A stretch of DNA of 64,000 nt, from NCBI GenBank assembly GCA_012518815.1, contig JAAYRK010000017.1, forward strand, positions 1 through 64,000. Reading direction: 5' to 3'. The notes beneath the pieces are model-generated. The model was not told the DNA's origin. It did no database searches and saw nothing but the letters and a program-made list of their open reading frames with translations. Below, piece by piece: positions 1,430 through 43,182 of this stretch. Within the stretch, counting starts at the first letter, position 1; every line of letters begins with the position of its first letter. The position numbers were made by a program, and so were the translations under genes. Source of the stretch: Candidatus Epulonipiscium sp. Lineage in GTDB: Bacteria; Bacillota; Clostridia; Lachnospirales; Defluviitaleaceae.

Positions 1430-1458
1430 AAATAGGAACAGTTAAACTGCTCCTATTT
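1430..1458 (-). terminator. Rho-independent terminator after nagB
   Basis: Twelve-base-pair stem with a three-base loop (AATAGGAGCAGT / ACTGTTCCTATT as read on the minus strand, one G-U pair) followed by a T run. The stem overlaps the nagB stop codon and closes the nagA-nagB unit. Confidence 0.85.
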
Positions 1459-2214
1459 AAGTAATGGAATTATTTCAGATGCAGCTTCTTCATCAACTAC
1501 AAAGGTAACATCAGGATGAACTTGCAAAATAGATGCCGGAACTTTAGGTGTAATTTCACCAAAAATAGTTTTCTTTATAATAGCTGCTTTATTTTTACCA
1601 TTAGCTAGTAACATAATTTTCTTTGCTAACATAATCGTTTTAATTCCCATACTTATTGCCTTTTTGGGCACTTCGTCAATTGAGTCAAAAAACCTTGAAT
1701 TTGCCTCAATAGTACCTTCATCCAAATATACAAGATGAGTAAAGGCTTCAAACTTATCATCTGGTTCATTAAAACCTATATGTCCATTATTCCCAATGCC
1801 TAATACTTGAAAATCTATTCCTCCGGCTTTAATAATCTTGTTTTCATAATTCTTGCATTCTTCTTCTATGTTTTCAACATTTCCATTAGGAATATTTATC
1901 CTATCTGTATCAATATTAATATGCTTAAATAAATTATCCATCATGTAATAATAGTAGCTTTGTGGATTATCTCTAGAAATAGGACAATATTCATCTAAAT
2001 TAAAGCTTGAAACTTGAGAAAAATCCAAGCCTTCTTCCTTATGCATACGAACCAATTCCTTATACATGCCAACAGGGGTTCCTCCAGTTGCTAAACCAAG
2101 TACACTTTGACTATTAAGACGTATTTGACTTGCTAACAAGTAAGCAGCTTGTTTGCTCATTTTTTCATAATTTGATTCAATATAGATTTGTATATTATTT
2201 AATTTATATTTCAT
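1453..2214 (-). CDS. nagB: Glucosamine-6-phosphate deaminase
   Basis: Converts glucosamine-6-phosphate to fructose-6-phosphate and ammonia, the last step feeding amino sugars into glycolysis. Family marks are present: phosphate-binding loop LGLATGGTP near residue 40, catalytic Asp in NLDEY near 75, and the signature GIGNNGHIGFNEP near 140. The frame is open further upstream, but ATG at 2214 follows GGGAAGGGG at about 9 bases and gives 253 residues, typical of the family. It overlaps nagA by 11 bases, so translation is probably coupled. The nagA-nagB pair completes the route from N-acetylmannosamine or N-acetylglucosamine. Confidence 0.95.
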   Translation of the reverse strand: MKYKLNNIQIYIESNYEKMSKQAAYLLASQIRLNSQSVLGLATGGTPVGMYKELVRMHKEEGLDFSQVSSFNLDEYCPISRDNPQSYYYYMMDNLFKHINIDTDRINIPNGNVENIEEECKNYENKIIKAGGIDFQVLGIGNNGHIGFNEPDDKFEAFTHLVYLDEGTIEANSRFFDSIDEVPKKAISMGIKTIMLAKKIMLLANGKNKAAIIKKTIFGEITPKVPASILQVHPDVTFVVDEEAASEIIPLLK

Positions 2215-3346
2215 ACAAAATTTTCCCCTTCCCAATTGTCATAGCAATGTTGATTTCTTCATCAAACACGGTAATATCCGCATCTTTTCCTATATCAAGA
2301 CTTCCTTTAATACTATCAAGTCCCAATACTTTTGCAGGATTTAAAGTAACAAGTTGAATTAGTTGAGGAATGCTATAATCTGTATGTTTGTAAACATTAT
2401 ATACTGCATTATTTAAATTAAGGACACTTCCTGCTAAAGTATTATCTTCTAATTTTGCTCTTTTATTCTTTACAAAAACTTTTTGACCTCCTAATTCATA
2501 TTCCCCATCTTCTTTTCCCCCTGCTGACATACAATCTGTCACTAGCACTATACCATCTAAGCCTTTTACTTTAAGCAACATGGAAAACAAGCCAGGGTGT
2601 ACATGAATTTCATCAGCTATAAGTTCACAACTAACATTACTAGTAAAAGCTGCACCTACAACTCCCGGATTGCGATGATGAAGCCCGGTCATTGCATTAA
2701 ATAAATGAGTTATATGACTTATGCCGCAAGTAATTCCCTCTAGAGTTTCTTCGAAAGTTGCATCACTATGTCCAATTGATAATACAATATTTGTTTCATT
2801 TTTTACCTTTTTAATAAAATCTAAAGCTCCCTCTAACTCTGGTGCAATTGTAATCAATGAAATTATATCTTTATGATCGTTTATTATATCATAATCAAAA
2901 GGAATTATATACTCTTTTTTTTGTGCTCCTTTAAATTTTTTATTGATAAAAGGCCCCTCTACATGAACCCCTAAAATCTCAGCTCCTTGGACTCCCTTTT
3001 CTTTTATTTTTCTTATATTATCTAATGCACGGTTTATATTTTCTATTGGCATTGACATGGTAGTTGGTAAAAAAGATGTTACACCATTTCTAGCTATTCC
3101 CTTGCTTATTGCTTGCATAGCTTCTTCAGTAGCATCCATTGTGTCAAAGCCATCAAAACCATGAATGTGCATATCAATAAAGCCAGGTGAAATATACTTG
3201 CCCTTTACGTCTATTTTTTCTATACCATCAATATTGTTTATTTCTTCTTCATTTATAATGTTTCTAATTTTTTCATCAAAAAGAATCGCTTTTTTGTGAT
3301 ATAACTTGCCAGAAATTATTATCTTTCCATTATATAAGCACTTCAT
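2204..3346 (-). CDS. nagA: N-acetylglucosamine-6-phosphate deacetylase
   Basis: Removes acetate from GlcNAc-6-P in the cytosol. The 380-residue protein shows the amidohydrolase metal sites GFIDMHIHG (about residue 55), HVEGPF (about 125), SIGHSDAT (about 190), and the downstream HLFNAM and TDCMSAGG motifs. The start at 3346 follows AGGAGGAG at 5 bases. It is first in a two-gene unit with nagB, separated by a terminator from the sialic-acid kinase gene upstream, so it is probably also used for general GlcNAc catabolism. Confidence 0.96.
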   Translation of the reverse strand: MKCLYNGKIIISGKLYHKKAILFDEKIRNIINEEEINNIDGIEKIDVKGKYISPGFIDMHIHGFDGFDTMDATEEAMQAISKGIARNGVTSFLPTTMSMPIENINRALDNIRKIKEKGVQGAEILGVHVEGPFINKKFKGAQKKEYIIPFDYDIINDHKDIISLITIAPELEGALDFIKKVKNETNIVLSIGHSDATFEETLEGITCGISHITHLFNAMTGLHHRNPGVVGAAFTSNVSCELIADEIHVHPGLFSMLLKVKGLDGIVLVTDCMSAGGKEDGEYELGGQKVFVKNKRAKLEDNTLAGSVLNLNNAVYNVYKHTDYSIPQLIQLVTLNPAKVLGLDSIKGSLDIGKDADITVFDEEINIAMTIGKGKILYEI

Positions 3347-3472: not shown

Positions 3473-3500
3473 AAAAAAAGGACATGAAAAATCATATCCT
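3473..3500 (-). terminator. Rho-independent terminator after the ROK kinase gene
   Basis: Stem GGATATGA / TCATGTCC with a TTTT loop and a run of seven T directly after it on the minus strand. It separates the nanE-rpiR-nanK unit from nagA-nagB. Confidence 0.85.
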
Positions 3501-3505
3501 CCTTT

Positions 3506-4390: not shown

Positions 4391-4416
4391 ATTGCACCTC
4401 TAAATTATTATTGCTT

Positions 4417-5274: not shown

Positions 5275-5289
5275 ACCATCTACTCCTTA

Positions 5290-5976: not shown

Positions 5977-5979
5977 CAA

Positions 5980-6341
5980 ATCTCACCTACTATCTAAAAA
6001 CTCTTATATCCTCATTCCTCCTAAAATATAATAGCATATAAAAGTTTTTTTATATATTATTAAATTAATAAATTATTTTCATTTATCAAATATATTTAAA
6101 TTTTTATATATATTAAAATAAATCCAAATTATAATAACGCAATTATTTAATATTATGATAAGGAGAAAGGAAGAACTGTGTTCTTCACTTTCTCAATCTA
6201 ATATTTGTAAAAATATATTCTAGCTATAAATTACGTCAAATAAACAAAATACTTTAATAAATTATTTAGATGCGAAAATACCAATTCTCTTTTTTTAAAC
6301 TATTATTTTCCCAACAATTAAATCAAACACTCTCTTTACAA
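5980..6341 (-). other. AT-rich gap between nanA-like and nanE genes, with one hairpin
   Basis: No credible gene. A hairpin lies at 6163-6194 (GAGAAAG / CTTTCTC outer stem, AGAAC / GTTCT inner stem) but has no T run on either strand, so it is not a standard terminator; it may be a processing or weak termination site. A possible -10 (TATAAT, read on minus) lies near 6130 without a good -35 element. The gap suggests that nanE-rpiR-nanK can be transcribed apart from the transporter unit. Confidence 0.4.
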
Positions 6342-7253
6342 TTAACAAAATTTCTTCTTAGCCTTTTCAATCATATCAACACATTCTAAAATAGTTGGTA
6401 AATCCTCTTGTATAAACCGTGGTAGTGGTAATCTTGCTTCACCAATATCAATACCTTGTCTTCTTAATATTTCTTTAGCCACAGAATACAAATTCCCATG
6501 ACATGAGAGCATAGCAAATATAATCTTGTTAATTTCAAATTGGATTTCTTTAGCAGTAACAAAATCCCCGTTATTAATCAATTCGTCTGCTTTTATAAAC
6601 AATTCTGGCATTACTGCATAAGTGCCCCCAATACCGCCATCAGCACCAATTGCCCTCCCAGATACAAATTGTTCGTCAGGTCCGTTAAAGACTATAAAAT
6701 CTTCTCCAGCAGCTGCTTTAAATATTTGAATATCCTGGGTAGGCATTGAGGAGTTCTTTATACCTATAACTTTTTTATTTGTAATCATTTTTTTAAATAA
6801 GTCTAAAGTTAAAGCATATCCTGTTGTCCCTGGAATGTTATAAATTACAAAATCTAAATCTGTTGCATCAACCATATCGTTCCAATACTTTTCAATTGCA
6901 TAGTCAGGCAATCTAAAATAAATTGGGGGAATGGCAGCTACAGCATCTACTCCACACTTTTCTGCATGTTTAGCAAGCTCAACACTGTCCCTAGTAGATG
7001 GTGCCGCAACATGAGCAATAATAGTAATCTTTCCTTTTGCAACTTCCATTACATTCTCTAGTATTAATTTTCTTTCTTCTACATTTTGATAAATACATTC
7101 TCCTGAACTTCCACAAACATATAAACCTTTAACCCCTTTATCAATTAAGTACTGTGTAAATAATCTTGTACGCTCGGGGCTAACATCTCCCTTGTCATCA
7201 TAGCATGCATAAAATGCTGGGAAAATGCCTTTGTATTTATCCAATCTACTCAT
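6342..7253 (-). CDS. nanA: N-acetylneuraminate lyase-like aldolase (DapA superfamily)
   Basis: Class I aldolase of 303 residues. Visible: GLYVCGSSGE (about residues 43-52, substrate carboxylate loop), the catalytic Tyr in VIYNIPG (about 138), the Schiff-base Lys in IGIKNSS (about 166), and GADGGIGGTYAVMPE (about 204), which is closer to N-acetylneuraminate lyase (DGGIGSTYN) than to dihydrodipicolinate synthase. The expected product is ManNAc plus pyruvate. AGGAGG precedes ATG at 7253, which overlaps the dehydrogenase stop by 8 bases. The family contains other aldolases of similar sequence, so the substrate rests on the presence of nanE, the kinase and nagAB. Confidence 0.8.
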   Translation of the reverse strand: MSRLDKYKGIFPAFYACYDDKGDVSPERTRLFTQYLIDKGVKGLYVCGSSGECIYQNVEERKLILENVMEVAKGKITIIAHVAAPSTRDSVELAKHAEKCGVDAVAAIPPIYFRLPDYAIEKYWNDMVDATDLDFVIYNIPGTTGYALTLDLFKKMITNKKVIGIKNSSMPTQDIQIFKAAAGEDFIVFNGPDEQFVSGRAIGADGGIGGTYAVMPELFIKADELINNGDFVTAKEIQFEINKIIFAMLSCHGNLYSVAKEILRRQGIDIGEARLPLPRFIQEDLPTILECVDMIEKAKKKFC

Positions 7254-11771: not shown

Positions 11772-13436
11772 TTACTTCTTCCATGAACTTTTTAAAGATA
11801 CAATTCTATTAAATACAAGCTTCTCTTTTGTAGAATCCTTAGTATCTACACAAAAATAACCATGGCGTAAAAATTGGAATTTATCACCTTTCTTAACTTC
11901 TTTCATTGAAGGCTCAATTATACAATTTTTTAAAACCTTTAAGGAATCAGGATTTACTATTAATTCACCGCTTTCTTCATCTTCTATAAACAGATAATCA
12001 TATAATCTTACTTCTGCTGGAATTCCATGAGAAGCCGAAACCCAATGAATGGTTCCTTTTACTTTTCTTCCTGTAAAACCACTTCCACTTTTGGTTTCTG
12101 GATCATAAGTACAACGCAATTCAATAATTTCTCCAGTTTTTTCGTCTTTTATAACTTCTTCGCATTTAATAAAATAAGCATTCCTTAACCTTACTTCTTT
12201 ACCAGGAGATAAACGGAAGAATTTCTTTGGTGGATCTTCCATAAAATCTTCTCTCTCAATATATATTTCTCTAGAAAATGGAAGCTGTCTTGTTCCCATT
12301 TCTGGATTTTCAGCATTATTCTCAACATCAAGCATTTCTATTTGTCCTTCGGGATAATTAGTTATAACAACTTTAAGAGGATCTAACACAGCCATAACTC
12401 TTGGTTTTTTTAATTTTAAATCTTCACGGATACAATGTTCCAAAAATGAGATATCCACTATTCCTTTGTTTTTAGCAACACCTGTTTTATAGCAAAATTC
12501 CTTTATAGCTTCAGGAGTATAGCCCCTTCTTCTTAAACCTGAAATTGTAGGCATACGTGGGTCATCCCAACCGTCTACAATATTTTCTTCTACTAAACTT
12601 CGAAGTTTTCTCTTACTCGTTACCATGTTTGAAATTTCAAGTCTTGCAAACTCTATCTGCTTAGGAGGATTCTTAATATTAAGTTCTTCTAAAAACCAAT
12701 TGTATAAAGGCCTGTGATCTTCAAATTCTAATGTACAAATAGAATGAGTTATCCCTTCAATTGCATCAGATAGGGGATGTGCAAAATCATACATAGGATA
12801 AATGCACCATTTATCACCTGTATTATGATGACTTACATGAGCGATACGATAAATAACAGGATCTCTCATATTTATATTAGGAGAAGCCATATCAATTTTA
12901 GCCCTAAGTACCTTTGCACCATCAGGAAATTCCCCATTTTTCATTCTAACAAATAAGTCAAGATTTTCTTCTACTGAACGATTTCTATAAGGACTTTCTT
13001 TTCCTGGTTCCGTTAAGGTACCTCTATATTCTCTAATTTCTTCAGCAGTTAAATCATCTACATATGCCTTTCCTTTCTTAATAAGCTCTATAGCATACTC
13101 ATAAAGCTTATCAAAATACCAAGAAGCATAATAAAGCCTATCTTCCCAGTCATAACCTAACCATTTTACATCTTCTTTAATTGACTCCACGTATTCTACA
13201 TCTTCTTTAGTAGGATTTGTATCATCAAATCTTAAATTACACAGGCCGCCATATTTTTCTGCAGTACTAAAATCTAGCCAAATTGCTTTAGCATGTCCTA
13301 TATGTAAATACCCATTAGGCTCAGGAGGGAAACGTGTATGAACTTTTTTACACACACCTTCTTCTAAATCTTTATCAATTATGTCATGAATAAAATTAGT
13401 AAACTCTTCATTCATTAAATTTTTATTAGACTCCAT
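11772..13436 (-). CDS. glnS: Glutaminyl-tRNA synthetase
   Basis: Charges tRNA-Gln directly with glutamine. The 554-residue protein resembles E. coli GlnRS throughout: [15 protein letters not shown] (HIGH motif, about residue 46), [35 protein letters not shown] (KMSKS region, about 270), [16 protein letters not shown], and the two C-terminal beta-barrels. The C-terminal half and the sequence separate it from GluRS. AGGAGG lies 10 bases before ATG 13436; a TTG at 13439 is also spaced well. Most Firmicutes make Gln-tRNA through GatCAB instead, so this gene suggests past transfer or a dual system. Confidence 0.95.
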
Positions 13437-13500
13437 CAACAGCCGTCCTCCTTATAGTAAATATTACTATTATTAGCTCATAATATTTATATCATACTCA

Positions 13501-18858: not shown

Positions 18859-21800
18859 TTATGCAAAGTAATCTATTCCTGCTTTAAATAATTTTTGATT
18901 TTTTTCTCCAACTATATTTTTAGCTACATTACTGCCTATTCTTTCTGAATGTCCCATCTTACCTAAAATTCTTCCATCTGGGCTTGTTATCGCTTCTATA
19001 GCATTCATGGAACCATTAGGATTATAGGCAATATCATAACTAGGATTTCCTTCAAAATCTACATATTGACTTGCTACTTGTCCATTTTCAAAAAGACTAT
19101 TCATCATTTCTTCATCTGCAACAAATCTTCCTTCTCCATGAGCTACAGCAATAGTATGCAAATCTCCTAATTCTACATTAGCAAACCATGGTGATTTAAC
19201 AGATACAATTTTAGTAGTAACCATAGTAGATACTGTACGGCCTAATGTGTTAAAAGTAAGTGTTGGAGAACTATTGTCAATATCTCTTATTTCCCCATAA
19301 GGTACTAAGCCTAATTTAATAAGAGCTTGGAATCCACTACCTATTCCTAGAATTAATCCATCCCTCTTATTTAAAAGATTCATAACTGCTTCTTTAACCT
19401 TAGGATTTTTAAATACAGTAACTATAAACCTTCCGCTACCTTCCAACTTATCTCCTGCATTATAACCACCAGGAAGAGCAATGATTTGAGAATTATTAAT
19501 TTCTTCTGCCAAACGATTGATAGAATCTTCAATATGAGAAGGAGTCAAATTCTTAAATACAAATATATTTCCTATGCCACCTGCATTCTCAAAGGCTTTT
19601 TGAGTTTCATACTCGGCATTAGTTCCTGGGAATAAAGGAATAATTACTCTTGGTTTTGCTATTTTCACTTTAGCTTTTTCGATGTTTCTAATAGAATAAG
19701 TTTTACTAATAGGTTTAACATTGGTTGTTTCTACCTTAGTTGGGAATACTTTTTCTAAAGTTTCTGTCCATGCTCCAATCATTTCTTCTATAGCAATTTC
19801 CTTATTATTAAGCTTAATATAAGGACTTTCCTGTGTTTGTCCAAGAACAATGTAACTGATATCATCAAAAAGATTTTCGTCAGCTTTATTTATCTCAAGA
19901 ATAAGAGATCCATAATTAGGTTCAAATAAAGCTTCTTTATCCATTTCTGCTGTAAAAATCATTCCAATTTTATTACCAAAACTCATTTTACTAATTGCCT
20001 CTGCAATTCCACCTAGCCTAATTGTATGAGCTGATAATACTTTTCCCTTTTGAATTAATTCTGTTACCTTAGAATATACTTTATCTAATTCATCAAAATC
20101 TGGAAGCTCATACTTGTCCCTCTTTAAAGGAATATAAATAACTGTGCTGTTAGCTTTTTTAAACTCTGGTGAAATTATCTTATCTGCTTTAGCAACATTA
20201 ACTGCAAAAGCTGTCAAGGTTGGTGGTACATCTAAGTCTTCAAAGGTACCAGACATACTATCTTTTCCACCAATAGAACCAGTTCCTAATCTTTTTTGAA
20301 CCAAGTATGCTCCAAGAACCGCACTAAAAGGTTTTCCCCATCTTTTAGGATCTTCACCTAAACGTTCAAAGTATTCTTGAAGAGTAAAACGAATAGTTTT
20401 ATAATCTCCACCGACTGCCACGACCTTAGCTGCTGCTTCTATCATCGCATATACTGCACCATGGAAAGGACTCCATCTCGACATTTTAGGATTGTAGCCA
20501 TGGCTCATAATTGTTGCTGTATTGGTATCTCCTTCTAAAACAGGAACCTTTGCAACCATACATTCCGCTGGAGTTAATTGATATTTACCACCATAAGGTA
20601 AAAGTACTGTACCTGCCCCTATAGTGCTATCAAACATTTCGACAAGACCTTTTTGACTACATATATTTAAATCTTTAAGATTTGCAAGCCAAGCTTCTTT
20701 AATATCTTCAAGCTTTTCCTTAACTTCAGGTAAAATAGTATTAAAGTAATTATCCTTAGCTTCAGGATTAACTACGTGAACATCTGCGTAATGGACCGCA
20801 CCATTACTATTTAAGAAAGCTCTGCTAATATCAACTATAGCATTACCCTTCCAAAACATCGTTAATCTTTTTTCTGATGTAACTTCTGCTACTACTGTAG
20901 CTTCTAAGTTTTCTTCTTCAGCAAGAGCTATAAACTCATTTACCTTATCTTTTTCAATAACAACTGCCATTCTCTCTTGAGATTCAGAGATAGCTAGTTC
21001 TGTTCCATCTAAACCTTCATATTTTGTAGGTACTAAATCAAGATTTATCTTAAGTCCGTCAGCCAATTCCCCAATAGCAACGGATACTCCACCTGCACCA
21101 AAGTCATTACAACGTTTTATCATCTTACTTACTTTTGGATTTCTAAAGAGTCTTTGAATGTGTCTTTCTATAGGAGGGTTTCCTTTTTGTACTTCTGCAC
21201 CACAAGATGTAAGGGATTCCTCAGTATGTTCCCTAGAAGAACCTGTTGCTCCTCCGCAACCATCTCTACCAGTTCTACCACCTAAAATAATGATGATATC
21301 TCCTTCTTCTGGAACACCTCTTAAAACATTTTCCCTGGGAATTGCTGAAATAACTGCACCTAGCTCCATTCTCTTTGCTACATAACCTTCATCATATATT
21401 TCTGCAACATGACCTGTAGTAAGACCTATTTGATTACCATAAGAACTATATCCTTGTGCTGCTTCTATAGTAATTTTTCTTTGAGGTAGTTTTCCTGGCA
21501 ATGTGTCTTTTACCAAAGTTCTAGGATCTCCACTACCTGTTATACGCATAGCTTGATAAACATAAGAACGTCCTGATAAGGGGTCTCTTATTGCTCCTCC
21601 AAGACAAGTATGAGCTCCACCAAAAGGCTCTATCTCTGTTGGATGGTTATGAGTTTCATTCTTAAACATTATAAGCCATTCTTCATCTTTTCCATCAACA
21701 TCAACATTAACTATAATGCTGCAAGCATTTATTTCATCAGATTCTTCAAGATCATCTAATTTGCCTAATTTCTTTAATTCTTTCATTCCCATTAAAGCAA

Positions 21801-22749: not shown

Positions 22750-23634
22750 ATGGATATTAACTTTGAACTTTATAAAATTTTTTATTATGTAGCCGATAGC
22801 CTAAGCTTTTCTAAAGCTGCATCAAAGCTTTATATTTCTCAATCAGCTGTTAGCCAAGCTATTAAAACTTTGGAAAGTAAATTAAATATTAAATTATTTT
22901 TTAGAAACACAAAACAAGTAAAGTTAACAAATGATGGTGAAATATTATTTAGACATATAGAACAAGCTTATAATCTTATTAAAAATGGTGAAAGAATTAT
23001 AGATGAAATCAACTCACTTGAAAAAGGAGAAATCCGTATTGGTGCCAGTGACACCATATGTAAGTATTATCTGCTTAATTATTTTAAAGAATTCCATAAA
23101 CTATATCCAAATGTAAAAATTCATGTTACTAATGGAACTTCTCCTAAGTGTGTAGAACTACTTAAACAAGGTAGTGTTGATTTCATTATATCAAATATTC
23201 CAAATAGATATACAGATTCTTCTATGAAAATAAAGGAAATAAAACCTATTCAAGATGTTTTTATAGCAGGCAATCAGTTTAAAGAAATAAAAAATAGGGA
23301 AATATCTTTAAAGGATTTAGAAAAATATCCTTTTCTTATGCTAGAAAAACAAACATCTACAAGAGAATTTTTTGATAATATGTTATTAGAAAATAATACA
23401 GATATAACTCCAGAAATTGAATTAGGCAGTACGGATCTTTTAGTTGAAATGACAAAAATCGGCCTTGGTATTACTTTTGTTTGGAAAAAATGTATCGAAG
23501 AACAATTAAAATCAAAAGAAGTATTTATAGTAAATATAAAAGAAAAAATTCCTGAAAGATATTTAGGGATTGTAACTCATAAGCAAATTCCTCTTTCTAT
23601 TGGTGCAAAAAAGTTTATTGAGCTACTTCACTAA
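22750..23634 (+). CDS. LysR-family transcriptional regulator
   Basis: A 294-residue regulator with an N-terminal winged helix-turn-helix (residues 1-60; FSKAASKLYISQSAVSQAI) and a periplasmic-binding-type effector domain (about 90-290; IRIGASDTICKYYL). Divergent from purL, and directly upstream in the same direction as a nitronate monooxygenase gene that has its own promoter, which is its likeliest target. AAGGTGG precedes ATG. Confidence 0.93.
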   Translation: MDINFELYKIFYYVADSLSFSKAASKLYISQSAVSQAIKTLESKLNIKLFFRNTKQVKLTNDGEILFRHIEQAYNLIKNGERIIDEINSLEKGEIRIGASDTICKYYLLNYFKEFHKLYPNVKIHVTNGTSPKCVELLKQGSVDFIISNIPNRYTDSSMKIKEIKPIQDVFIAGNQFKEIKNREISLKDLEKYPFLMLEKQTSTREFFDNMLLENNTDITPEIELGSTDLLVEMTKIGLGITFVWKKCIEEQLKSKEVFIVNIKEKIPERYLGIVTHKQIPLSIGAKKFIELLH

Positions 23635-27180: not shown

Positions 27181-28199
27181 ATCTCCACCCCTGTCTCACT
27201 TTCAACAACTTCTCCTATAAGATAAGCTTTTTCTCCAATACTTGAAAGTATAGAAAGGGCTTTTTCTTTTTCACTTTCATCAATAATTATAACCATTCCT
27301 ATTCCCATATTAAAAGTATTATACATGCTCATTCTGCTGACATTGCCAAGTTCTTCAGTTAATTTAAAGATGGGAAGTATCTCCCAAGTTCCTTCATAAA
27401 CTTTTGCTCCAAGTCCCTTTGGAAATGCTCTAGGGATATTTTCAATAAAGCCTCCACCTGTAATATGACTAATCCCTTTTATATCAACAGCTTCTTTTAA
27501 TTTATTAATAGTATTTACATATATCTTAGTAGGTTTTAATAGTTCTTCACCTAAAGTACAACCTAAAAGTTCTATATATTCATTAACATTATCTTTGTTG
27601 GGATTAAATATTTTCCTGATAAGAGAATATCCATTGCTATGAATTCCACTTGAAGCTAAACCAATTAAAATATCACCTTTTTTAATTCTGCTTCCATCAA
27701 TAATTTTTTCTTTATCAACTATACCTACACAAAAGCCTGCCAGATCATATTCATCTTCAGGATAAAAGCCTGGCATTTCTGCAGTTTCTCCTCCTATTAA
27801 TGCTGCTCCTGCTTGTTTACAACCTTCTGCAACTCCCTTAACAATTTCAGCAATTTTCTTAGGTATATTTTTGCCACACGCAATATAATCTAAGAAAAAC
27901 AGGGGTTCTGCTCCAGAACATGCAACATCATTAGCACACATTGCAACACAATCTATGCCTATAGTATCATGTTTGTCAGTAACAAAAGCTATCTTAAGCT
28001 TAGTACCAACGCCATCTGTACCAGAAACTAAAACAGGCTCCTTCATTTTATTTTTTGCAATAGAAAATAAGCCTCCAAAACCACCAATATCCGTTAATAC
28101 TTCAGGCCTGTAAGTACTCTTTACATAGTCCTTCATTAAGCGAACTGCTTCATAACCTGCTTCTACATCAACACCAGCACTTTTATAATCCATACTCAT
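27168..28199 (-). CDS. purM: Phosphoribosylformylglycinamidine cyclo-ligase
   Basis: Makes AIR from FGAM. 343 residues: [13 protein letters not shown] near the N-terminus, [15 protein letters not shown] (about 57), [18 protein letters not shown] (about 88), [11 protein letters not shown] (about 137) and [13 protein letters not shown] (about 243). It overlaps purF by 4 bases and purN by 13 bases. Confidence 0.97.
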
Positions 28200-29599
28200 T
28201 TTTCTTCCTCCTTATCAACTTTTATAGGATAATTTCCGTCAAAACAAGCAGTACAAAAACCACATTTAGCTCCAATAGGTGTTTTCTTAAGACCTTCAAT
28301 GGATAAAAAGGCAAGGCTGTCAGCACCTATTAACTTGGCTATTTCTTCTATGGAATAATGATTTGCAATTAGATTTTTCCTGTGTGGAGTATCAATTCCA
28401 AAATAACATGGGTAATACACAGGTGGAGAACTTATTCTAATATGAACTTCTTTGGCTCCTGCATCTTTTAGCATTTTAACAATTCTCTTACTAGTTGTTC
28501 CCCTTACTATAGAATCATCTATCATAATAATTCTTTTACCTTCAACTTGACTTTTAAAAGGATTTAATTTTAATCTTACGGCTTGCTCTCTCATTTCTTG
28601 ACTAGGTTGTATGAAAGTTCTTCCGATATATCTGTTTTTCATTAGCCCATCCCCATAGGGAATTCCACTTTCTCTTGCATAACCTATCGCAGCAGTAAGC
28701 CCAGAATCTGGTACCCCTATAACCAAATCTGCATCTACAGGTTGTTCTTTTGCAAGGATTTTACCAGCTTCTAATCTCGCCTCATATACATAGGCTCCGT
28801 CAATAATACTATCTGGTCTTGCAAAATAAACAAACTCAAAAATACACATTTTAGATTCTTTAGGTGCTTCAGTTTGTATGGATTTCATACCTTCTTCATT
28901 AGCAATTACAATTTCCCCAGGCTTTACATCTCTAATAAATTTTGCACCTACTGTTTCAAGAGCTGCTGTTTCAGAAGAAAAGATATAGGAATCATCTTTC
29001 TTTCCAATGCATAAAGGTCTCATACCTAATGGATCCCTAGCTGCAATTAATTTGTGAGGAGTCATAATTAAAAGAGAATAAGAGCCCTTAATTTGTTTCA
29101 TTACCTCAACCAATGACTCTTCTATACTGTGATGTTTAATTCTTTCACTTGAAAGAAGAGCTGCAATAACCTCTGCATCACTATAAGATTGAAATAAAAA
29201 TCCCCTTTCTTCCAAATCATTTCTTATTTTATTTGCATTTATCAAACTTCCATTATGAGCAAGTGCCATATGTCCCTTAGTATATTTTAGCACTAAAGGT
29301 TGGGCATTTTCTCTTTGACTTTCTCCAGATATAGTAGCTCTTACATGTCCAATTGACATTTTGCCATGTAAATGGCTAAGAATCACATCATCAAATACTT
29401 CCGATACCATTCCCATTTCTTTGTGATAAATAATAGTTCCGTTATCGTTAATAGCAATTCCTGCACTTTCTTGTCCCCGATGTTGTAATGCATATAATCC
29501 GAAATAAGTCATTTCTGCTGTATTCCAGTTATTACTGTTATAGATACCAAAGACACCACATTCATCATGAAACTTATCATCTACAAATTCCTGATGCAT
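28196..29599 (-). CDS. purF: Amidophosphoribosyltransferase with altered glutamine loop
   Basis: First committed purine step, PRPP plus glutamine to phosphoribosylamine. 467 residues of the B. subtilis type: a short propeptide ending at HDE before the catalytic Cys of [16 protein letters not shown] (oxyanion Asn), PRPP loop [13 protein letters not shown] (about 345), and cysteines for a [4Fe-4S] cluster ([21 protein letters not shown]). The glutamine loop, GHVRYxT in the family, is GHVRATISG here: Arg is kept but the Tyr is Ala (codon at 29336-29338). AAAGGAG precedes ATG. First gene after the guanine riboswitch. Confidence 0.96.
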
Positions 29600-33472: not shown

Positions 33473-34054
33473 TTATTTTATTTTTCGACTTCCAGGCTTT
33501 ATTAAAGCCATCTTTCCTTCTTTACAAATTGGACATTCTTCTGCTTCATAAGACACTACATCTACAGTTAAAGCTGCTCTAAGTTTTGTCCCAAAATCAA
33601 CTTTTCCATTGCTCCTATCTACTAAAACAGCTACTCCTGCCAATTCTCCACCTTGTTCTTTAACTATATCTATAACTTCCATGACAGAACCTCCAGTTGT
33701 AATAACATCTTCTGCTACAAGTACTCTAGTTCCTTTTGGAATAGTAAAGCCCCTTCTTAAGGTCATTTTTCCATCTTCTCTTTCTGCAAATAAGTTTTTA
33801 CATTTTAATTGTCTTGCTAATTCATAGGCTATAATAATTCCACCCATAGCAGGCCCTACAACCATATCTATATTGTCATCTTTAAATTCTTCTGCTAAAC
33901 CTTTTGCAATTTCTTCAGCATAATTTGGATATTGTAAAATTTTTGCACACTGCATATATTGATTACTGTGTCTTCCTGAAGTTAATTGAAAATGACCTTC
34001 AAGTAAAACTTCTGTTTCTTTAAAAATTTCTATAACTCGGTCTTTACTTAACAT
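33473..34054 (-). CDS. pyrE: Orotate phosphoribosyltransferase
   Basis: Converts orotate plus PRPP to OMP. 193 residues: HFQLTSGRHSNQYMQCAK (about residue 21), VVGPAMGGIIIAYELA (about 61), and the PRPP loop VLVAEDVITTGGSV (about 111). The CPIC segment near the C-terminus is common in the clostridial group. Last gene of the operon, 43 bases after pyrD. Confidence 0.96.
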   Translation of the reverse strand: MLSKDRVIEIFKETEVLLEGHFQLTSGRHSNQYMQCAKILQYPNYAEEIAKGLAEEFKDDNIDMVVGPAMGGIIIAYELARQLKCKNLFAEREDGKMTLRRGFTIPKGTRVLVAEDVITTGGSVMEVIDIVKEQGGELAGVAVLVDRSNGKVDFGTKLRAALTVDVVSYEAEECPICKEGKMALIKPGSRKIK

Positions 34055-34097
34055 CTATAATCCTCCATCATTATATATTATTCTTTATAAAAGCATA

Positions 34098-35012
34098 TTA
34101 AATAATAGCTCGAATTTCATCTAAAGACTTTATACCATAAAGTTTCATGTATTCTTTAATACCTTCTAGTACATCTATGCTTGCCCTTGGATTTCTAAAA
34201 TTAGCAGTGCCTACAGCTACTGCCTTAGCCCCAGCTAATAAAAATTCTATAGCATCTTCTCCTGTTGCTATACCTCCCATCCCAATTATGGGTACAGATA
34301 CTGCCTTAGCTACTTGATAAACCATTCTAAGAGCAACGGGCTTTATGGCTGGCCCAGAAAAGCCACCTACAACATTAGCAAGAATAGGTTTTCTTTTATG
34401 GATATCTATTGCCATTCCAAGCAAAGTATTAATAAGTGATATGGCATCTGCTCCCCCTTCTACTACTGCCCTTGCTATTTCTGTAATGTCCGTTACATTT
34501 GGACTTAATTTAACTATAAGGGGTTGTTTTGCGTAACGTTTTACTTCTTTGGTAACTTTATGTGCCATTTTTACATCAGTTCCAAAGGTTACTCCACCTT
34601 CTTTTACATTAGGACAAGAAATATTAAGCTCAATTAAATCAATATCTGCACTAGATAATCTTTCTACTACCTCGCAATATTCTGGTATAGACTTACCAGC
34701 AACATTTACTATAATTTTTGTGTCATATTGGCGAAGAAAAGGAATATCATTTTTTATAAATTCTTCTACACCAGGATTTTGCAAACCTACGCTATTTAAC
34801 ATACCACCATAGGTTTCTGCAATTCTTGGAGCAGGATTTCCTTTCCATGGAATACTGGACACTCCTTTTACTGTCACTGCTCCTAATTGATTAAGATCTA
34901 TAAATTCTCCATATTCCCTACCAGAGCCAAAAGTCCCAGAAGCTGTGGTGATGGGATTTTTTAATTCTACTCCTGCAATATCAACTTTAAGATTAAGATT
35001 TTCTTTATTCAT
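34098..35012 (-). CDS. pyrD: Dihydroorotate dehydrogenase, class 1B catalytic subunit
   Basis: FMN subunit that oxidises dihydroorotate using NAD through PyrK. 304 residues from ATG 35012 (GAGGTGG, 6 bases); the longer open frame has no site and lies in pyrK. Motifs: [11 protein letters not shown] (about 21), the catalytic Cys in [11 protein letters not shown] (about 131), [12 protein letters not shown] and [16 protein letters not shown] near the end. It overlaps pyrK by 8 bases. Confidence 0.97.
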
Positions 35013-35778
35013 CCCATACCACCTCATCACTCCAAAATACTGGACCGTCTTTGCAGACCTTTTTATGCTGCCAGTCCTGTTCATCTTTTTCTTTAACTTT
35101 ACATACACAGCCTACACAAGCCCCTATACCACATGCCATTCTTTCTTCTAAGGATACTTGCATAGGAATATTATTATTTTTTGCCCATCCTGCAACAGCT
35201 TTTAACATTGGTTTAGGGCCACAACTGTATATAATATCCCCAACTGCATTATTGTTTTTTAGAAGTTCTAAAACATTTCCCTTAAAGCCTTCCAAGCCGT
35301 CATCTGTAGCTATGTGAACCCTTGCTCCAATTTTTTCGAATTCTTCTATTAGCATAGCTTGACTTCTAAAGCCTAAATATACATCTACTTCACCTTTTAA
35401 ATGCTTGACAAGCTCTACTAATGGAGGAGTTCCTAAGCCTCCTCCTACAATTATATTTTTTCTTTTTGTCTCATCAATCATAAAGCCATTACCTAAAGGC
35501 CCTAATACTTCTATACTTTCTCCTCTTTTGATATTACCAAATTCCTCTGTCCCTTTTCCAACTACTCCATAAACAAGAACTATTCTGCCTTTTTCTTTAT
35601 CTATTTCACAAATACTTATAGGTCTTGGTAAAAGCCTTGACTCTGCCTTGCAATATAAGTTTACAAATTGGCCTGCCTTTGCTTTTTGGGCAATATCTTT
35701 TATATCTAAAGTCATACTGTATATGTTTGGCGATATTAATTTATTGTCAACTACAAGAGCATTTTTAATTTCCTTCAT
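35005..35778 (-). CDS. pyrK: Dihydroorotate dehydrogenase electron-transfer subunit
   Basis: FAD and [2Fe-2S] partner of PyrD, 257 residues. FAD-binding RPISI (about residue 53) and GVVGKGT, NAD-binding [13 protein letters not shown] (about 112), and a C-terminal cluster site [14 protein letters not shown] plus a later Cys in [10 protein letters not shown]. It overlaps carB by 14 bases and pyrD by 8 bases. AGGAGG precedes ATG. Confidence 0.97.
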
Positions 35779-38700
35779 GACTTCCTCCTAAGTTATATAC
35801 ATCAATATCTTTAAAATCAATCTTAGAATCCATAACCATAAGCAGAGCCTTAACAGTATCTAAAGAAGTAAACAAATCAACAGAAGCTTCAATGGCTGCT
35901 CTTCTTATTCTAAATCCATCTCTTTTAGAATCATTACCTTTAGTTGGCGTATTAATAACTATATCAATCATACCGCTTCTTATAATATCTAATATATTAG
36001 GAACTCCTTCACTAATCTTTTTAACTTCAGAAACTGGAATATTTTCTTTTTCTAATAATTTTGCTGTTCCTTCTGTTGCTACAAAGCGGTATCCGTATTC
36101 TACAAAAGCCTTCGCTATAGGTAAAAATTCTTTTTGGTCATAGGGTTTAATAGTTGCAAGAATGGTACCATTTCCTTTAGGAATTTTCCCACCTGCTGCT
36201 AAAAAGCCCTTATATAAAGCTTCATTAAGAGTTCTGCCAACTCCTAGAACTTCTCCTGTAGAACGCATTTCTGGACCTAAGCTCACCTCTACCCTTGGAA
36301 GCTTTTCTGTTGAAAATATAGGAACTTTAACTGCTATTAATTCTGCTTCCTTATAAATATCTGTACCATAACCCAAGTCTCTTAAATTTTCTCCTAACAT
36401 TACCCTTGTTGCAATATCAATAACTGGCACTCCTGTTACCTTACTAATATATGGCACTGTACGGCTTGAACGAGGATTAACTTCTATTATATATAATTCA
36501 TTTTCAAATTCAATAAACTGAATATTTACCATCCCTATAACATTTAAAGCAAGGGAAACTCTTTTGGTATAATCTAATATTTTTTCTTTTATCTCTTGTG
36601 ATACATTTTGACTTGGATAGATAGTAATACTGTCACCTGAATGTACTCCAGCCCTTTCTAGATGCTCCATGATACCAGGTATTAATATATCCTTACCATC
36701 ACAAATTGCATCAACTTCAATTTCTCGTCCAATTAAGTATCTATCAATTAATACGGGATTTTTTGAATCTCTTTCAAAAGCCTCTCCTAAATACTGTTTT
36801 AATTCTTCCTCATGATAGGTTATTTCCATCCCTTGCCCCCCCAAAACATATGAAGGACGAACCAGTACAGGATAACCTAAATTTTCAGCTTCTTTTAAAC
36901 CTTCTTCAAGGCTCCATACTGCCTTACCTTTTGGTCTTTTAATGCCTAGTTCTTCTAATAGAGCATCAAATTTTTCTCTATCTTCTGCTGCGTCAATTTG
37001 TTCAGGTTTTGTTCCATAAATGGGTATATTCATTTCTCTAAAAAATTTTGCTAGTTTAATTGCAGTTTGTCCTCCAAATTGAAGAACAACACCGTCAGGT
37101 TTTTCTTTTTCTACTATATTTAAAACATCTTCTTCTGTTAAAGGTTCAAAATATAATTTATCCGATATATTAAAGTCTGTACTTACTGTTTCAGGATTAT
37201 TGTTTACAATAATTGTTTCTAATCCTGCTTTCTTTAAGGATAGTACACTGTGAACAGAACAATAGTCAAATTCAATTCCTTGTCCAATTCTAATAGGTCC
37301 AGAACCAATTACCATTACTTTTTTCTTATTGGATACTTCCACTTCATCATATTCATCATAAGTTGAATAATAATAGGGTGATTCTGCATTAAACTCACCT
37401 GCACAGGTATCTACCATTTTATAAACAGGATTAATACCCCATTCTTCCCTTAACTTATAGATTAACTGAGGACTAACCCCCATAAAATCTGCAATACCTT
37501 TATCTGAAAAACCTTTTTTCTTAAGCATATAAAGATAATCTCTAGTTAAATCTTCAATCCTCATTTGCTTTAAGTTTTCTTCTTGCTCAACAATCCACTT
37601 GATTTTTTCCACAAAAAAGGGATCTATCCCAGTAATTTTACACACTTTTTCCACACGATAGCTTCTTCTTATCATTTCTGCTAAATCAAAAATTCTTTCA
37701 TCATCAGGAACTTGAACCCTTTGCTTTAATTCATCTAAATTTCTTTTTGAAGATGATTTTTTATTTAAAGAATACTGACCTATTTCCAAGGAACGAATTC
37801 CTTTTAAAAGGGCAGCTTCAAAATTATTTCCTATAGCCATTACTTCCCCTGTTGCCATCATTTTAGTTCCAAGAGAACGTTTAGCACCATGGAATTTATC
37901 AAAAGGCCACTTTGGTATTTTTATAACAACATAGTCCAGGGTAGGTTCAGAACAAGCATAAGTCTTGCCTGTTACAGTATTTTTAATCTCATCTAATCTA
38001 TATCCTAAAGCAATTTTTGTTGCTACCTTTGCAATTGGATAACCTGTAGCTTTTGAAGCAAGGGCAGAAGAACGGCTAACTCTAGGATTAATTTCTATAA
38101 CTGCATATTCAAAGCTTTCGGGATTAAGGGCAAATTGTACATTACAGCCACCCTTAATTCCAACTGCATCAATAATATCTAGGGCCGCATCCCTTAACAT
38201 TTTATTTTCTTTATCTGATAATGTTTGACTTGGAGCAACTACTATACTATCACCTGTATGTACTCCTACAGGATCGATATTTTCCATATTACATACAACG
38301 ATACTATTACCATCTTCATCTCTAATAACTTCATACTCTATTTCTTTCCAGCCTTTAATACTTCTTTCAAGAAGTACTTGGCCTACTCGGCTTAAATGTA
38401 AGCCATGACCTAATATTTCTTTTAATTCCTCTAAATTATTGGCTATTCCCCCTCCTGTACCCCCCAAGGTATAAGCAGGACGAACAATTAAAGGGTATCC
38501 TATTTTATCAGCAAATTTTATCCCGTCTTCTATATTGGTGACAATTTCACTTTCAACTAAGGGTTGACCAATTCTTTCCATTAAGTTCTTAAAACCTTCT
38601 CTGTCTTCCCCTTCTTTTATAGATTCTATAGAGGTTCCAATAATTTTAACCCCATATTTATCAAGGATTCCTTTATCATAAAGTTCTACAGCCAGGTTTA

Positions 38701-38986
38701 ATCCTGTCTGACCTCCCATCCCTGCCAACAAGCTGTCTGGCCTTTCTTTTTGGATAATCCTTTCAATGACTTCAGTAGTTAAAGGCTCTATATAAATACT
38801 ATCTGCAATTTCTTTGTCTGTCATAATAGTTGCAGGATTACTATTAATCAGTACAACTTCCACTCCTTCTTCTCTTAAAGCCTGACAAGCTTGAGTTCCG
38901 GAGTAATCAAATTCTGCCGCCTGGCCTATTACAATAGGACCGGAACCGATTACCATTACTTTTTTTATGCTTTTATCCCTTGGCAT
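35765..38986 (-). CDS. carB: Carbamoyl-phosphate synthase large subunit
   Basis: Makes carbamoyl phosphate from bicarbonate, two ATP and ammonia. The 1073-residue chain has two homologous ATP-grasp halves ([17 protein letters not shown] at the start and [17 protein letters not shown] at about 563), an oligomerisation part between, and an allosteric MGS-like domain at the end (about 935-1060). ATP sites look intact ([32 protein letters not shown]). Its usual ammonia source, CarA, lacks a glutaminase triad here. It overlaps carA by 22 bases. Confidence 0.97.
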
Positions 38987-40032
38987 ACTGCTTCTCCTTC
39001 CATTGCATTGATAAACCAGTTATAAATATTGCCTATATCTCTATATCCGGGATAGAATTGAATCCCTACAAGCGGCAATTCTTTATGGACAAAACCTTCA
39101 ATTGTATTATCATTTATATTTACATGAGTCTTTATTGCATTTTCTGGCAACTCTACTATGTCGTAAGAATGATTTTGAGCAGTTATAAGTACTTTATTAG
39201 TATTTAAATCTTTTACAGGATGATTTGCTCCTCTGTGTCCATGTTTTGATTTTTTTATAGTACCACCAAGACTTTTAGCTAAAAGTTGACAACCTAAATC
39301 AATAGCTAATATAGGTTTTTTACCAACTAACTGTTTGATATTTTCAACTGCCCACGGAACATCTAAAGGACTACCAGGTCCGTTAGATAAAAGAATTCCC
39401 TCGGGATTTGTTTTTAAAAGCTCTTCTGGAGTTGTGGTTGCTGGGAAAACAGTCATAAAACAATTTCTTTCCTTTAAAAAATTGATAATACTTTGTTTTA
39501 TTCCATAATCTATAATTGCAATATGATGTCCTGTACCTTCTATTTCATATTTTTCCTTTGTTGTTACTTCAGCAACTGCATTTATATTATGATAGCTGTT
39601 TATTTTTTGCTCAATTTGGCTTTTTGTAAGCTCTCTTACAGTAATAATCCCTCTCATACTGCCGTGATTTCTTAAACTTCTTGTTAGTGCCCTTGTATCT
39701 ATGCCTTCTATTCCAATAACCTTGTTTTGTTTTAAGAATCCATCCAATTCCATTTCACAACGCCAGTTATTAGGAAAGTCTGCCTTTTCTCTAACAATAA
39801 GACCTCTTACTTTTACATTTTGGGATTCCATGTCTTCTAAATTGATACCGTAATTACCTATAAGAGGATAAGTCATGGTTACAATTTGTCCATAGTAAGA
39901 AGGATCTGTCAATACTTCTTGATATCCTGTCATTTCTGTATTAAATACAACTTCTCCGATAGTTTCCTTTATATATCCAAAGGCAGTTCCATTAAATATT
40001 GTTCCATCCTCCAATATCAATGTTGCTTTCAT
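38965..40032 (-). CDS. carA: Carbamoyl-phosphate synthase small subunit with degenerate glutaminase triad
   Basis: 355 residues with normal N-terminal CarA domain ([27 protein letters not shown]) and a class-I glutaminase fold ([26 protein letters not shown]). All three catalytic residues are changed. The family ICLGHQL elbow reads IDLGCQL (Asp in place of the nucleophilic Cys, codon 39298-39300), and the family QYHPE reads QFYPG (His to Tyr, Glu to Gly, codons near 39046-39054). The protein should not hydrolyse glutamine but may still cap CarB. It overlaps pyrF by 4 bases. Confidence 0.95.
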
Positions 40033-40955
40033 GCTAATGCCCCCTGCAAATCTTTTTTCATATCTAATACTGCTTGCTTTGAAGCAAGAGCAAATTCTTT
40101 TTCAGTAAAATCTTTTTTATATTTTTCTAACTTATAAGCTCCAATAATCCCTCTGGATGAATTTACGATTGCTCCTAATCCATTTTTGTCAAAACAAACT
40201 GCCAAGTCTTTTGCTGTTCCACCCTGAGCTCCATAACCAGGTACTAAGAAAAATGTATGAGGCATAAGTTCTCTAAGTCTTTTAGCTTGTTCTGGGTGAG
40301 TAGCACCAACAACTGCTCCTACATGACTGTAGCCTCTTTTTCCCATTACTTCTTCTCCCCAGTTAGAAACCAGTTTACCAACTCTTTCGTATAATTTTTC
40401 CTTTCCAACTTCTAAATCTTGAATTTCTCCACTATTAGGATTAGAAGTTTTAACTAAAATAAATAAACCTTTATCATAATCTTTACAATGTTTTATATAT
40501 GGCTCTATTGAATCATAGCCTAAATAAGGATTAAGGGTAATACTATCTTCATGATAAACTTCAAAGCTTTCATCTTCTACTTTAACCCTTCCTATATGAC
40601 CATCAGCATACGCCTGTGCAGTTGAAGCAATATCACTTCTTTTAACATCCCCAATTATTATAAGTCCCTTTTCTTTAGCATATTTAATTGTATCAATATA
40701 AGCTTGTATTCCTTCAGGTCCAAATTGCTCGTACATAGCTACTTGAGGTTTAACAGCAGGCACAAAGTCATATATCTCATCAATAATTGTTTTATTAAAT
40801 TTTAGAAAAGCCTCTGCTACTGCCTTAGGAGTTTTCCCCCACTTTTCATAAGCTTCTTCTTTTATAAAAGTTGGTATCATATCTAACCTTGGATCCAAAC
40901 CTACTACTGTAGGATTTTCTTTAGTTTCTATTTGATTTATTAATCTGTCAATCAC
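40029..40955 (-). CDS. pyrF: Orotidine-5'-phosphate decarboxylase (long type)
   Basis: Last UMP step. 308 residues, the longer type found in clostridia. Motifs: TVVGLDPRLDMIP (about 17), the catalytic GDVKRSDIAST (about 100), LNPYLGYDS, GAVVGATHP (about 211) and VPGYGAQGG (about 231). Fifteen bases after pyrC, with a 4-base overlap into carA. Confidence 0.96.
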   Translation of the reverse strand: MIDRLINQIETKENPTVVGLDPRLDMIPTFIKEEAYEKWGKTPKAVAEAFLKFNKTIIDEIYDFVPAVKPQVAMYEQFGPEGIQAYIDTIKYAKEKGLIIIGDVKRSDIASTAQAYADGHIGRVKVEDESFEVYHEDSITLNPYLGYDSIEPYIKHCKDYDKGLFILVKTSNPNSGEIQDLEVGKEKLYERVGKLVSNWGEEVMGKRGYSHVGAVVGATHPEQAKRLRELMPHTFFLVPGYGAQGGTAKDLAVCFDKNGLGAIVNSSRGIIGAYKLEKYKKDFTEKEFALASKQAVLDMKKDLQGALA

Positions 40956-40970
40956 TCTTATCCTTCCCTT

Positions 40971-42260
40971 CTAATCCATTAACTCTCCATTATCAACAAC
41001 TATTTTGCCAGCTACAATTGTATATTTAACTTTCCCTTTAACTTTGTGACCATTAAAAGGAGTGTTTTTACTCTTGGAAACAAAAGAATTTGCATCAATT
41101 AGGTATTCTTCATTAGGATCAACTATGGTTATGTCTGCAACCTTTCCAACTTCTAATGAACCTTTATCTATTCCTAAAAGTTTTGCAGGATTTGTACTCA
41201 TTTTTTCTATTAATTCTAATGGACTTATTATATCTTCTTCCACTAAATGAGTGATTCCTAAGGCTAAAGCTGTCTCTAAACCTACAATTCCAAAGGCAGC
41301 CTTATCATATTCACAATTTTTTTCATCTATATGGTGGGGTGCATGGTCTGTTGCAATGATTTCAATAATATTATCTTTTAGGGCCTTTTTAATACTTTCT
41401 ACATCTTTTTTAGCCCTAAGAGGTGGATTCATTTTGGTATTAGCATCATATCCTTCCACTGCTTCATCTGTTAGAGAAAAATGATGTGGACAAACTTCAG
41501 CAGTAACTTTTTCTCCCCGCAATTTTGCTTCTCTAATTAACTGAACACTACCCTCTGTACTAATATGGCAAATGTGTAGCTTTACCCCTGTACTACGAGC
41601 TAAAATAATATCTCTTGCTACAATCACTTCTTCTGAATCAGCACTTATGCCTTTCATCCCTATTCTTTGAGCCATTTCTCCTGCATTCATAACACCGCCT
41701 CCAACAAGACTCATATCTTCACAGTGAGAAAAAACTGGGAGATTAAACATACTTGCATATTTCATAGCTTTCTTAAGAAGACCTGCATTTTCAACGGATT
41801 TTCCGTCTTCGCTTATGGCGCATATACCAGCTTGTGCCATCAAGCCAATGTTTGAAAGTTCTTCTCCCTTTTGCCCTTTAGTAATACTGCCAATAGGAAG
41901 CACATTTACCACTGCTTCTCTTTCTGCTTTCATTTTTATATATTCTACTAGAATTTCGTTATCAACTACTGGATTTGTATTGGGCATACAGCATATAGTA
42001 GTAAATCCTCCTTTAGCTGCCGCCATACTTCCTGTTTTTATTGTTTCTTTATATTCATAACCAGGTTCTCTTAAATGAACATGAACATCTATAAAACCTG
42101 GGCTAACCCAAAGACCTTGGGCATCTATTACTTTGTCTGCCTTTTCCTCTATCTTATCTTCAATTGCTATTATAATTCCATCCTCAACCAGTATATCTTT
42201 TTTCCCATCTATCTTGGATAAAGGATTCAGAAGCCGACCATTTTGTATTAGTAACCTCAT
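40971..42260 (-). CDS. pyrC: Dihydroorotase
   Basis: Cyclises carbamoyl aspartate. Class-I enzyme of 429 residues: metal site DVHVHLREPG (about 58), CMPNTNPV, HCEDMSL (about 180), LHICHIST (about 232) and ATDHAPHH (about 304). ATG at 42260 follows AAAGGAG at 8 bases. The start lies 77 bases inside pyrB, whose frame runs on past it. Confidence 0.96.
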   Translation of the reverse strand: MRLLIQNGRLLNPLSKIDGKKDILVEDGIIIAIEDKIEEKADKVIDAQGLWVSPGFIDVHVHLREPGYEYKETIKTGSMAAAKGGFTTICCMPNTNPVVDNEILVEYIKMKAEREAVVNVLPIGSITKGQKGEELSNIGLMAQAGICAISEDGKSVENAGLLKKAMKYASMFNLPVFSHCEDMSLVGGGVMNAGEMAQRIGMKGISADSEEVIVARDIILARSTGVKLHICHISTEGSVQLIREAKLRGEKVTAEVCPHHFSLTDEAVEGYDANTKMNPPLRAKKDVESIKKALKDNIIEIIATDHAPHHIDEKNCEYDKAAFGIVGLETALALGITHLVEEDIISPLELIEKMSTNPAKLLGIDKGSLEVGKVADITIVDPNEEYLIDANSFVSKSKNTPFNGHKVKGKVKYTIVAGKIVVDNGELMD

Positions 42261-43182
42261 CTTTCTTTCTCCTTTCAATCAATAAATCTATAATTGCCAT
42301 TCTAACTGCAACTCCGTTTTTTACCTGTTCATTAATAAGAGATTGTTCTCCATCAATAATATCTGTACTTAATTCAACCCCTCTGTTAACAGGTCCAGGA
42401 TGTAAGAGTATCGCATCTTCTTTTGCATATTTCATTAAATCTTTATTAACTCCAAAAATTTGACTATATTCTCTAAGGTCAGGAAAGAGCCCTCCTTTTT
42501 GTCTTTCCAATTGAATACGTAATCCCATTACTACATCTGCATCTTTTAGAGCTTCTTTTAGATCTGTTGTTACCTTTGCCCCAAGACATTCGATGTTTTT
42601 ATCAATTAAAGTAGCTGGACCACACACTACTACTTCAGCTCCTAATTTCTTAAGCCCAAAAATATTACTTCTTGCTACCCGACTATGAGCTATATCTCCA
42701 ATGATTGCTACTTTTAAATCTTTAAAATTCTTTTTCTTTTCATATATAGTAAAGAGATCTAATAAGGCTTGGGTAGGGTGTTCATTTATTCCATCCCCTG
42801 CATTTATTACAGAAGCATTTACATTTCTAGCTAATAGGTTAGCTGTCCCTGTCATACTATGACGGATAACCATTATATCAAAACCCATTTGGTCTAAGGT
42901 AACTCCTGTATCTACTAAACTTTCACCTTTATTAACACTACTAGTTGCAACACCTAAATCAGTAACTCTGGCTCCTGTATATTTTCCTGCCATAGTAAAA
43001 GACATTTTTGTTCTTGTACTATTTTCATAAAAAAGTGTTACCATATTATAATTTTCAAGAGTATTTTCTCTTAACTTTTTATTATTAATCCTTAACTTCA
43101 TCTTTTCTGCCGTATGGATAATTGACAGAATTTCGAAAGGACTTAAATTCTTAATTCCTAATAAATCCTTATTTTCTAACAT
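42184..43182 (-). CDS. pyrB: Aspartate carbamoyltransferase with C-terminal extension
   Basis: Catalytic chain, 332 residues; the family is usually near 305-310. Motifs: YENSTRTKMSF (about 51, carbamoyl-phosphate loop), VIRHSMTGTANLLA (about 102), GDGINEHPTQALLD (about 128), HSRVARSN, and LHPGPVNRGVEL (about 260). The conserved core ends near IIDLLIERR; about 25 further residues (TKWSASESFIQDRW...) are encoded over the pyrC ribosome site and start. No pyrI follows. First gene of the operon, behind a PyrR-type leader. Confidence 0.95.
   Translation of the reverse strand: MLENKDLLGIKNLSPFEILSIIHTAEKMKLRINNKKLRENTLENYNMVTLFYENSTRTKMSFTMAGKYTGARVTDLGVATSSVNKGESLVDTGVTLDQMGFDIMVIRHSMTGTANLLARNVNASVINAGDGINEHPTQALLDLFTIYEKKKNFKDLKVAIIGDIAHSRVARSNIFGLKKLGAEVVVCGPATLIDKNIECLGAKVTTDLKEALKDADVVMGLRIQLERQKGGLFPDLREYSQIFGVNKDLMKYAKEDAILLHPGPVNRGVELSTDIIDGEQSLINEQVKNGVAVRMAIIDLLIERRKKDEVTNTKWSASESFIQDRWEKRYTG

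Follow-up and report, generated by a model that had tools for sequence, protein, structure and literature searches.

The 64,000-nucleotide stretch of Candidatus Epulonipiscium sp. DNA analysed here (the window) carries a gene for single-chain FGAM synthase, purL, along with the other features collected in Table 1. The purL reading frame is free of interruptions. Its product matched the TIGR01857 equivalog over its full length (residues 5-1255), with a score well above the cut-off of 1057 bits. A LysR-type regulator is encoded divergently to purL (22750-23634), and this arrangement recurs in an unrelated genome with a Cys-less PurL (G008, locus L032, 342-1226).

Table 1. Features of the window, with positions counted from its first nucleotide.
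Feature	Position	Strand	Basis
nagB, glucosamine-6-phosphate deaminase	1453..2235	minus	Pfam Glucosamine_iso; 39% to E. coli NagB
Glutaminyl-tRNA synthetase	11772..13439	minus	60% identity to E. coli GlnS; Pfam
purL, single-chain FGAM synthase, 1256 aa	18859..22629	minus	ORF; TIGR01857 1855 bits
PurL class-I glutaminase domain, putatively disarmed (by sequence), predicted fold kept	18862..19656	minus	PF13507 262 bits; AlphaFold2 model
Nucleophile elbow GIGSGFQ replacing GICNGFQ	19327..19347	minus	Sequence, alignments
AHGEG with kept triad His1164 and Glu1166	19129..19143	minus	Sequence
purF, class-II; retains its Cys but differs at the glutamine site (HVRYST>HVRATI, HNGN>HNGS)	28196..29599	minus	Comparison with two relatives (L302, L303)
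UMP biosynthesis genes pyrB, pyrC, pyrF, carA, carB, pyrK, pyrD, pyrE	33473..43182	minus	ORFs, named by sequence
carB, large ammonia-using subunit, full-length 1073-aa frame	35765..38986	minus	ORF; named by sequence and operon position
carA, carbamoyl phosphate synthase small subunit, glutaminase half putatively dead (by sequence)	38965..40032	minus	
CarA AIDLGCQ, nucleophile Cys>Asp245 (codon 39300-39298)	39286..39306	minus	
CarA altered triad, HPE>YPG (His>Tyr327, Glu>Gly329)	39037..39066	minus	

The original prediction held that the PurL glutaminase domain lacks its nucleophilic cysteine while the rest of its catalytic triad and the synthetase halves remain intact. Our alignments agree. The nucleophile position is occupied by Gly1097 (codon GGT, 19341-19339), which aligns with the Cys of GVCNGCQ in the solved structures of Salmonella PurL. 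It is followed by Ser1098 (codon AGT, 19338-19336). As had been noted, each codon is one base from the usual one (TGT and AAT, respectively). Of the residues expected of an active class-I glutaminase, the domain thus lacks the Cys of GxCxGxQ and retains both His (19140-19138) and Glu (19134-19132). Among 89 aligned single-chain PurLs, the nucleophile site was Cys in 79, Gly in 9, and Ser in 1.

Erosion extends beyond the nucleophile. At positions conserved among Cys-intact PurLs, the window PurL had changed at 13 of 104 glutaminase-domain sites, as against 7 of 275 synthetase sites (Fisher p 0.0003). By comparison, PurLs with an intact Cys departed from the same 104 sites at a mean of 0.9 positions (maximum 4). 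The changed sites include 1005, 1056, 1057, 1061, 1098, and 1163, several of them within active-site motifs. A convergent second change in this domain was seen at position 1123, where Thr is replaced by Ala in 7 of 10 Cys-less PurLs and by Ile in an eighth. An AlphaFold2 model of the domain (pLDDT 83, pTM 0.86) adopts the class-I GATase fold and keeps the strand-turn-helix at the nucleophile point (strand 108-112, helix 114-122). Its best Foldseek matches were PurL structures from Salmonella and human (E 7e-15).

A genome-wide search for a separate purQ or second GATase_5 gene, the check that had been proposed, returned PurL itself as the sole match. The genome therefore lacks the separate purQ that characterizes three-component PurL/PurQ/PurS systems. 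With an intact synthetase, a predicted fold that is kept, and no second PurQ, the sequence supports the proposal that this enzyme is probably an ammonia-dependent FGAM synthase.

A parallel with CarA had also been drawn, and it proved to be understated. Besides the loss of all three triad residues in CarA (Table 1), the change reaches TrpG, GuaA, HisH, PyrG, GlmS, and GOGAT, with AsnB and PurF partly affected. The genome of the window (G000) is a draft of 2.19 Mb in 117 contigs, estimated to be 92% complete, of which 1.72 Mb (79%) was read letter by letter. It contains three PF00117 loci (TrpG, CarA, and GuaA), none with a usable triad, and the whole-genome search found no intact class-I glutaminase that could supply ammonia. 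TrpG reads GISLGHQ (Cys>Ser) with a second triad substitution, His>Asn (NPE), while the glutaminase domain of GuaA is truncated and has neither Cys nor His. In the his operon (hisG-D-B-A-F-IE, contig C13), hisH is cleanly missing from between hisB and hisA, which are separated by 30 bases (L255, 2356-3708), and the rest of the operon is intact. Four relatives (G001, G002, G003, and G005) carry hisH at this position, and its Cys was seen in the sequences of G003 and G005. Class-II glutaminase searches matched only AsnB and PurF, so neither GlmS nor the GOGAT glutaminase was found in G000. AsnB retains Cys1, but its glutamine pocket, like that of PurF, has changed, with FRCLS for FRRLS and SNSKIYN for FNGEIYN. 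Any single gene absence could reflect an assembly gap in a 92% draft, although its repetition in other genomes makes this unlikely.

Total abandonment of glutamine was considered and rejected. NadE (L203, contig C68) is an exception to the general loss: the enzyme has two domains, is of the glutamine-dependent type, and keeps its E/K/C triad; together with the retained Cys of PurF, it shows that the switch is not total. The presence of glutaminyl-tRNA synthetase indicates that glutamine is still needed for protein. Glutamine synthetase I (GSI) has been lost but GSIII is kept, and with GlnRS and a glutamine-type NadE also remaining, glutamine is evidently still made. Glutamate dehydrogenase (GDH) is present. 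MetA, which shares the class-I fold and a Cys nucleophile but does not hydrolyze glutamine, retains its Cys, which points to a loss confined to glutamine hydrolysis.

Cys-less PurLs were found in nine genomes besides G000, of which eight have Gly and the ninth Ser. Within the window's own family, G001-G005 keep the Cys and G007 has Gly. The alignment called for by the original prediction thus rejects a clade-wide Cys-less state of single-chain PurL, as most same-family relatives have a normal Cys. Scanning 393 Clostridia genomes with a sequence pattern recovered five further Gly PurLs from four families, or approximately 1.5% of genomes when the window is included.

In G006, the only other genome of the window's genus that was compared, CarA and GuaA carry the losses seen in G000, and TrpG reads GVGLGHQ. 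The G006 PurL, however, is Cys-intact, so a working glutaminase is not harmful there. The synthetase part of this PurL shares only ~63-69% identity with its counterparts in the family, and the tree places it apart from them (a joint grouping was disfavoured, AU p 0.013), whereas CarA and the GuaA synthetase are ~80% and 89% identical between G006 and G000. The G006 enzyme (L092/L006) therefore looks like a replacement through horizontal transfer.

Further changes were read in other genomes. G007 reads GIGLGHQ in TrpG and GINLGYLL in CarA, with GuaA intact. G008, an AS-series MAG, has GIGLGHQ in CarA, and G163 has GINYG in GuaA and GIGLGM in TrpG. GuaA is truncated in G009, G010, G160, and G347, and PF00117 had no match in G199. 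PurF of both G008 and G009 lacks the N-terminal catalytic Cys; the N-termini (MGGLF, L295, and MLGIF, L293, respectively) represent the equivalent change in a class-II enzyme. GatD-like proteins possibly involved in peptidoglycan amidation keep a Cys-containing AVCGG in two genomes with Cys-less PurL (L328 of G120 and L330 of G160).

The fewest independent PurL losses numbered five on a synthetase-only mixture tree and three on a rougher full-length FastTree. A topology uniting in one clade the eight Cys-less PurLs from beyond the window's family was not rejected (AU p 0.235), and the losses in G000 and G007 may go back to one event (support 41). As judged from these trees, the PurL Cys was probably lost independently three to five times or more. 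One shared origin of all losses was rejected, as the trees need from three to at least five changes.

PyrG (PF06418) was absent from G000 in a whole-genome search, even though the UMP pathway is complete within the window. It was also absent from G006, G007, G008, G009, G120, G160, G163, G199, and G347, and was kept in G010. Overall, PyrG was missing from 9 of 10 genomes with a Cys-less PurL versus 5 of 27 others (Fisher p 0.0001, uncorrected for relatedness; controls came from the same families where possible, and their PurL nucleophile was judged solely by absence from the pattern search, which is blind to TCN serine codons). Further Clostridia without PyrG were G150, G074, G389, G175, and G332. 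We know of no CTP synthase other than PyrG. G000 encodes a cytidine deaminase and a protein resembling uridine kinase, and neither nupC nor cmk was matched within the 79% of the sequence read; full replacement of PyrG by cytidine salvage is conceivable. Tentatively, and with less than even odds, PyrG may have given way in these lineages to a hitherto unnoticed ammonia-dependent conversion of uridine into cytidine nucleotides, belonging to a convergent amidation metabolism that does without glutamine. Such a route could take the form of a new enzyme or of a known deaminase run backwards. For amino sugars, the window holds a nagB-nagA-ROK-RpiR-nanE-nanA-like operon for amino-sugar and sialic acid catabolism (1453-7253). 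At a guess, NagB in reverse could fix ammonia to make glucosamine-6-phosphate in place of the absent GlmS.

Constraint on the Cys-less domains was estimated from G000 and G006, which share the losses. Values of dN/dS were 0.17 for the CarA GATase half and 0.12 for TrpG, compared with 0.41 for the GuaA remnant, 0.06 for the GuaA synthetase, and 0.09 for the CarA N half. As 0.12-0.17 indicates purifying selection, the Cys-less CarA and TrpG domains appear to be kept as scaffolds. In this fold the nucleophile occupies a strained turn, into which Gly, Asn, and Asp fit best. Across enzymes, Gly was the commonest replacement for Cys, followed by Ser, Asn, and Asp. Arg, Tyr, Phe, and Trp were never seen at this position among the enzymes read, though they are also one base away. 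This choice of elbow residues, together with the retained fold of the model, suggests selection for fold rather than chemistry.

Given the observed sequence changes, their spread across the genome, their recurrence, and the purifying selection on Cys-less CarA and TrpG, we consider it very probable that PurL depends on ammonia, as one element of a convergent change that runs through the genome and puts free ammonia in the place of glutamine as amide donor. Free NH3 would reach the synthetase site of PurL directly, and the glutaminase domain at the C terminus would persist purely as a structural element of the polypeptide. The fellow enzymes would likewise be expected, from their sequences, to depend on ammonia. 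This lineage and several others would have convergently dropped the glutamine donor in most amidotransferase reactions. With catalysis dispensable, the strained elbow position would be free to drift to residues that fit (Gly, Asn, Asp, and Ser), which may explain the prevalence of glycine. Free-standing glutaminases such as HisH would be deleted and some domains, as in GuaA, truncated. The most likely cause of the switch is life in ammonia-rich anaerobic habitats. We infer such a niche from the congener, whose record name, AS20ysBPTH, fits the MAGs of a biogas-reactor catalogue (PMC7038595).

Other explanations were also weighed. An assembly or sequencing error might be suspected in a draft of 117 contigs; open reading frames, and recurrence in ten genomes and several genes with varied codons and residues, refute this, leaving it a negligible chance. 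Pseudogene decay of purL and its fellow genes, in an organism that scavenges nucleotides and amino acids, would be in keeping with the several genes that are wholly missing and with the lack of a purB match within the 79% of G000 that was read. We rejected this reading, which we regard as highly unlikely, on grounds of constraint: the frames are full-length, few conserved PurL synthetase sites deviate, and dN/dS is lowest in the GuaA synthetase and CarA N half. In addition, the pyr set is complete and the his and pur sets are nearly so. Equally hard to credit is a second protein, either a separate PurQ or an unrecognised glutaminase, that provides channelled ammonia in trans. Three-component PurL/PurQ/PurS systems do use a separate glutaminase (PMC3815217), but the single GATase_5 locus and the lack of an intact class-I supplier largely refute such an arrangement here.

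A different cause for the same losses would be selection by natural glutamine antimetabolites, with resistance driving the change and ammonia use following as a consequence. Compounds resembling azaserine, DON, or acivicin alkylate the nucleophile and strike several amidotransferases at once, which would account for both the co-loss and the retention of scaffolds. An acivicin-bound CTP synthase glutaminase domain is also among the structural neighbours of the PurL domain. Nevertheless, HisH deletion, GuaA truncation, and the loss of PyrG, GlmS, and GOGAT exceed target-site resistance, and PurF and NadE, also targets of such drugs, keep their nucleophiles. We consider this explanation improbable.

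Biosynthesis is generally held to use glutamine as its universal amide donor, and ammonia-only amidotransferases have been known one at a time (CPS I and type N NadE). Our literature search, which left most subscription papers outside its reach, found no published report of genome-wide, recurrent glutaminase loss, nor of PurL in a Cys-less, ammonia-only state. If a general switch to free ammonia is correct, bacteria that repeatedly gave up glutamine in nucleotide, tryptophan, histidine, and amino-sugar synthesis would serve as nature's own test of what glutaminase domains are for. They would also provide native scaffold-only amidotransferases for the study of ammonia channels, and strict ammonium dependence would be predicted for some hard-to-grow anaerobes. 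The pattern also directs attention to the source of CTP and, in some of these cells, of glucosamine-6-phosphate.

The closest known systems each share part of this picture. The best PDB sequence match of the window CarA was E. coli CarA in 1c30, whose chain reads GISLGHQ at the nucleophile and which we take to be the engineered C269S variant. The window CarA, in contrast, is natural and has also lost His and Glu. The window PurL resembles the clostridial TIGR01857 enzymes in length, domain order, and score, but differs in its Cys>Gly change and eroded glutamine pocket, where close relatives keep the Cys. Type N NAD synthetase is a single-domain, ammonia-dependent enzyme with no glutaminase and is regarded as ancestral (PMC3376133). 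It likewise amidates with free ammonia, but not through secondary loss, and the NadE of G000 is itself of the glutamine type. A further likeness is to vertebrate CPS I, which uses ammonia and lacks the catalytic Cys (PMC7657897), and whose structures from human the window CarA also matches. In CPS I the glutaminase domain serves as a scaffold, its Cys lost and free ammonia used. The same pattern of a lost catalytic Cys with the synthetase kept is found in the sequences of the window PurL and CarA. CPS I, however, is one enzyme of one animal pathway, whereas here the change encompasses most amidotransferases of a bacterial genome.
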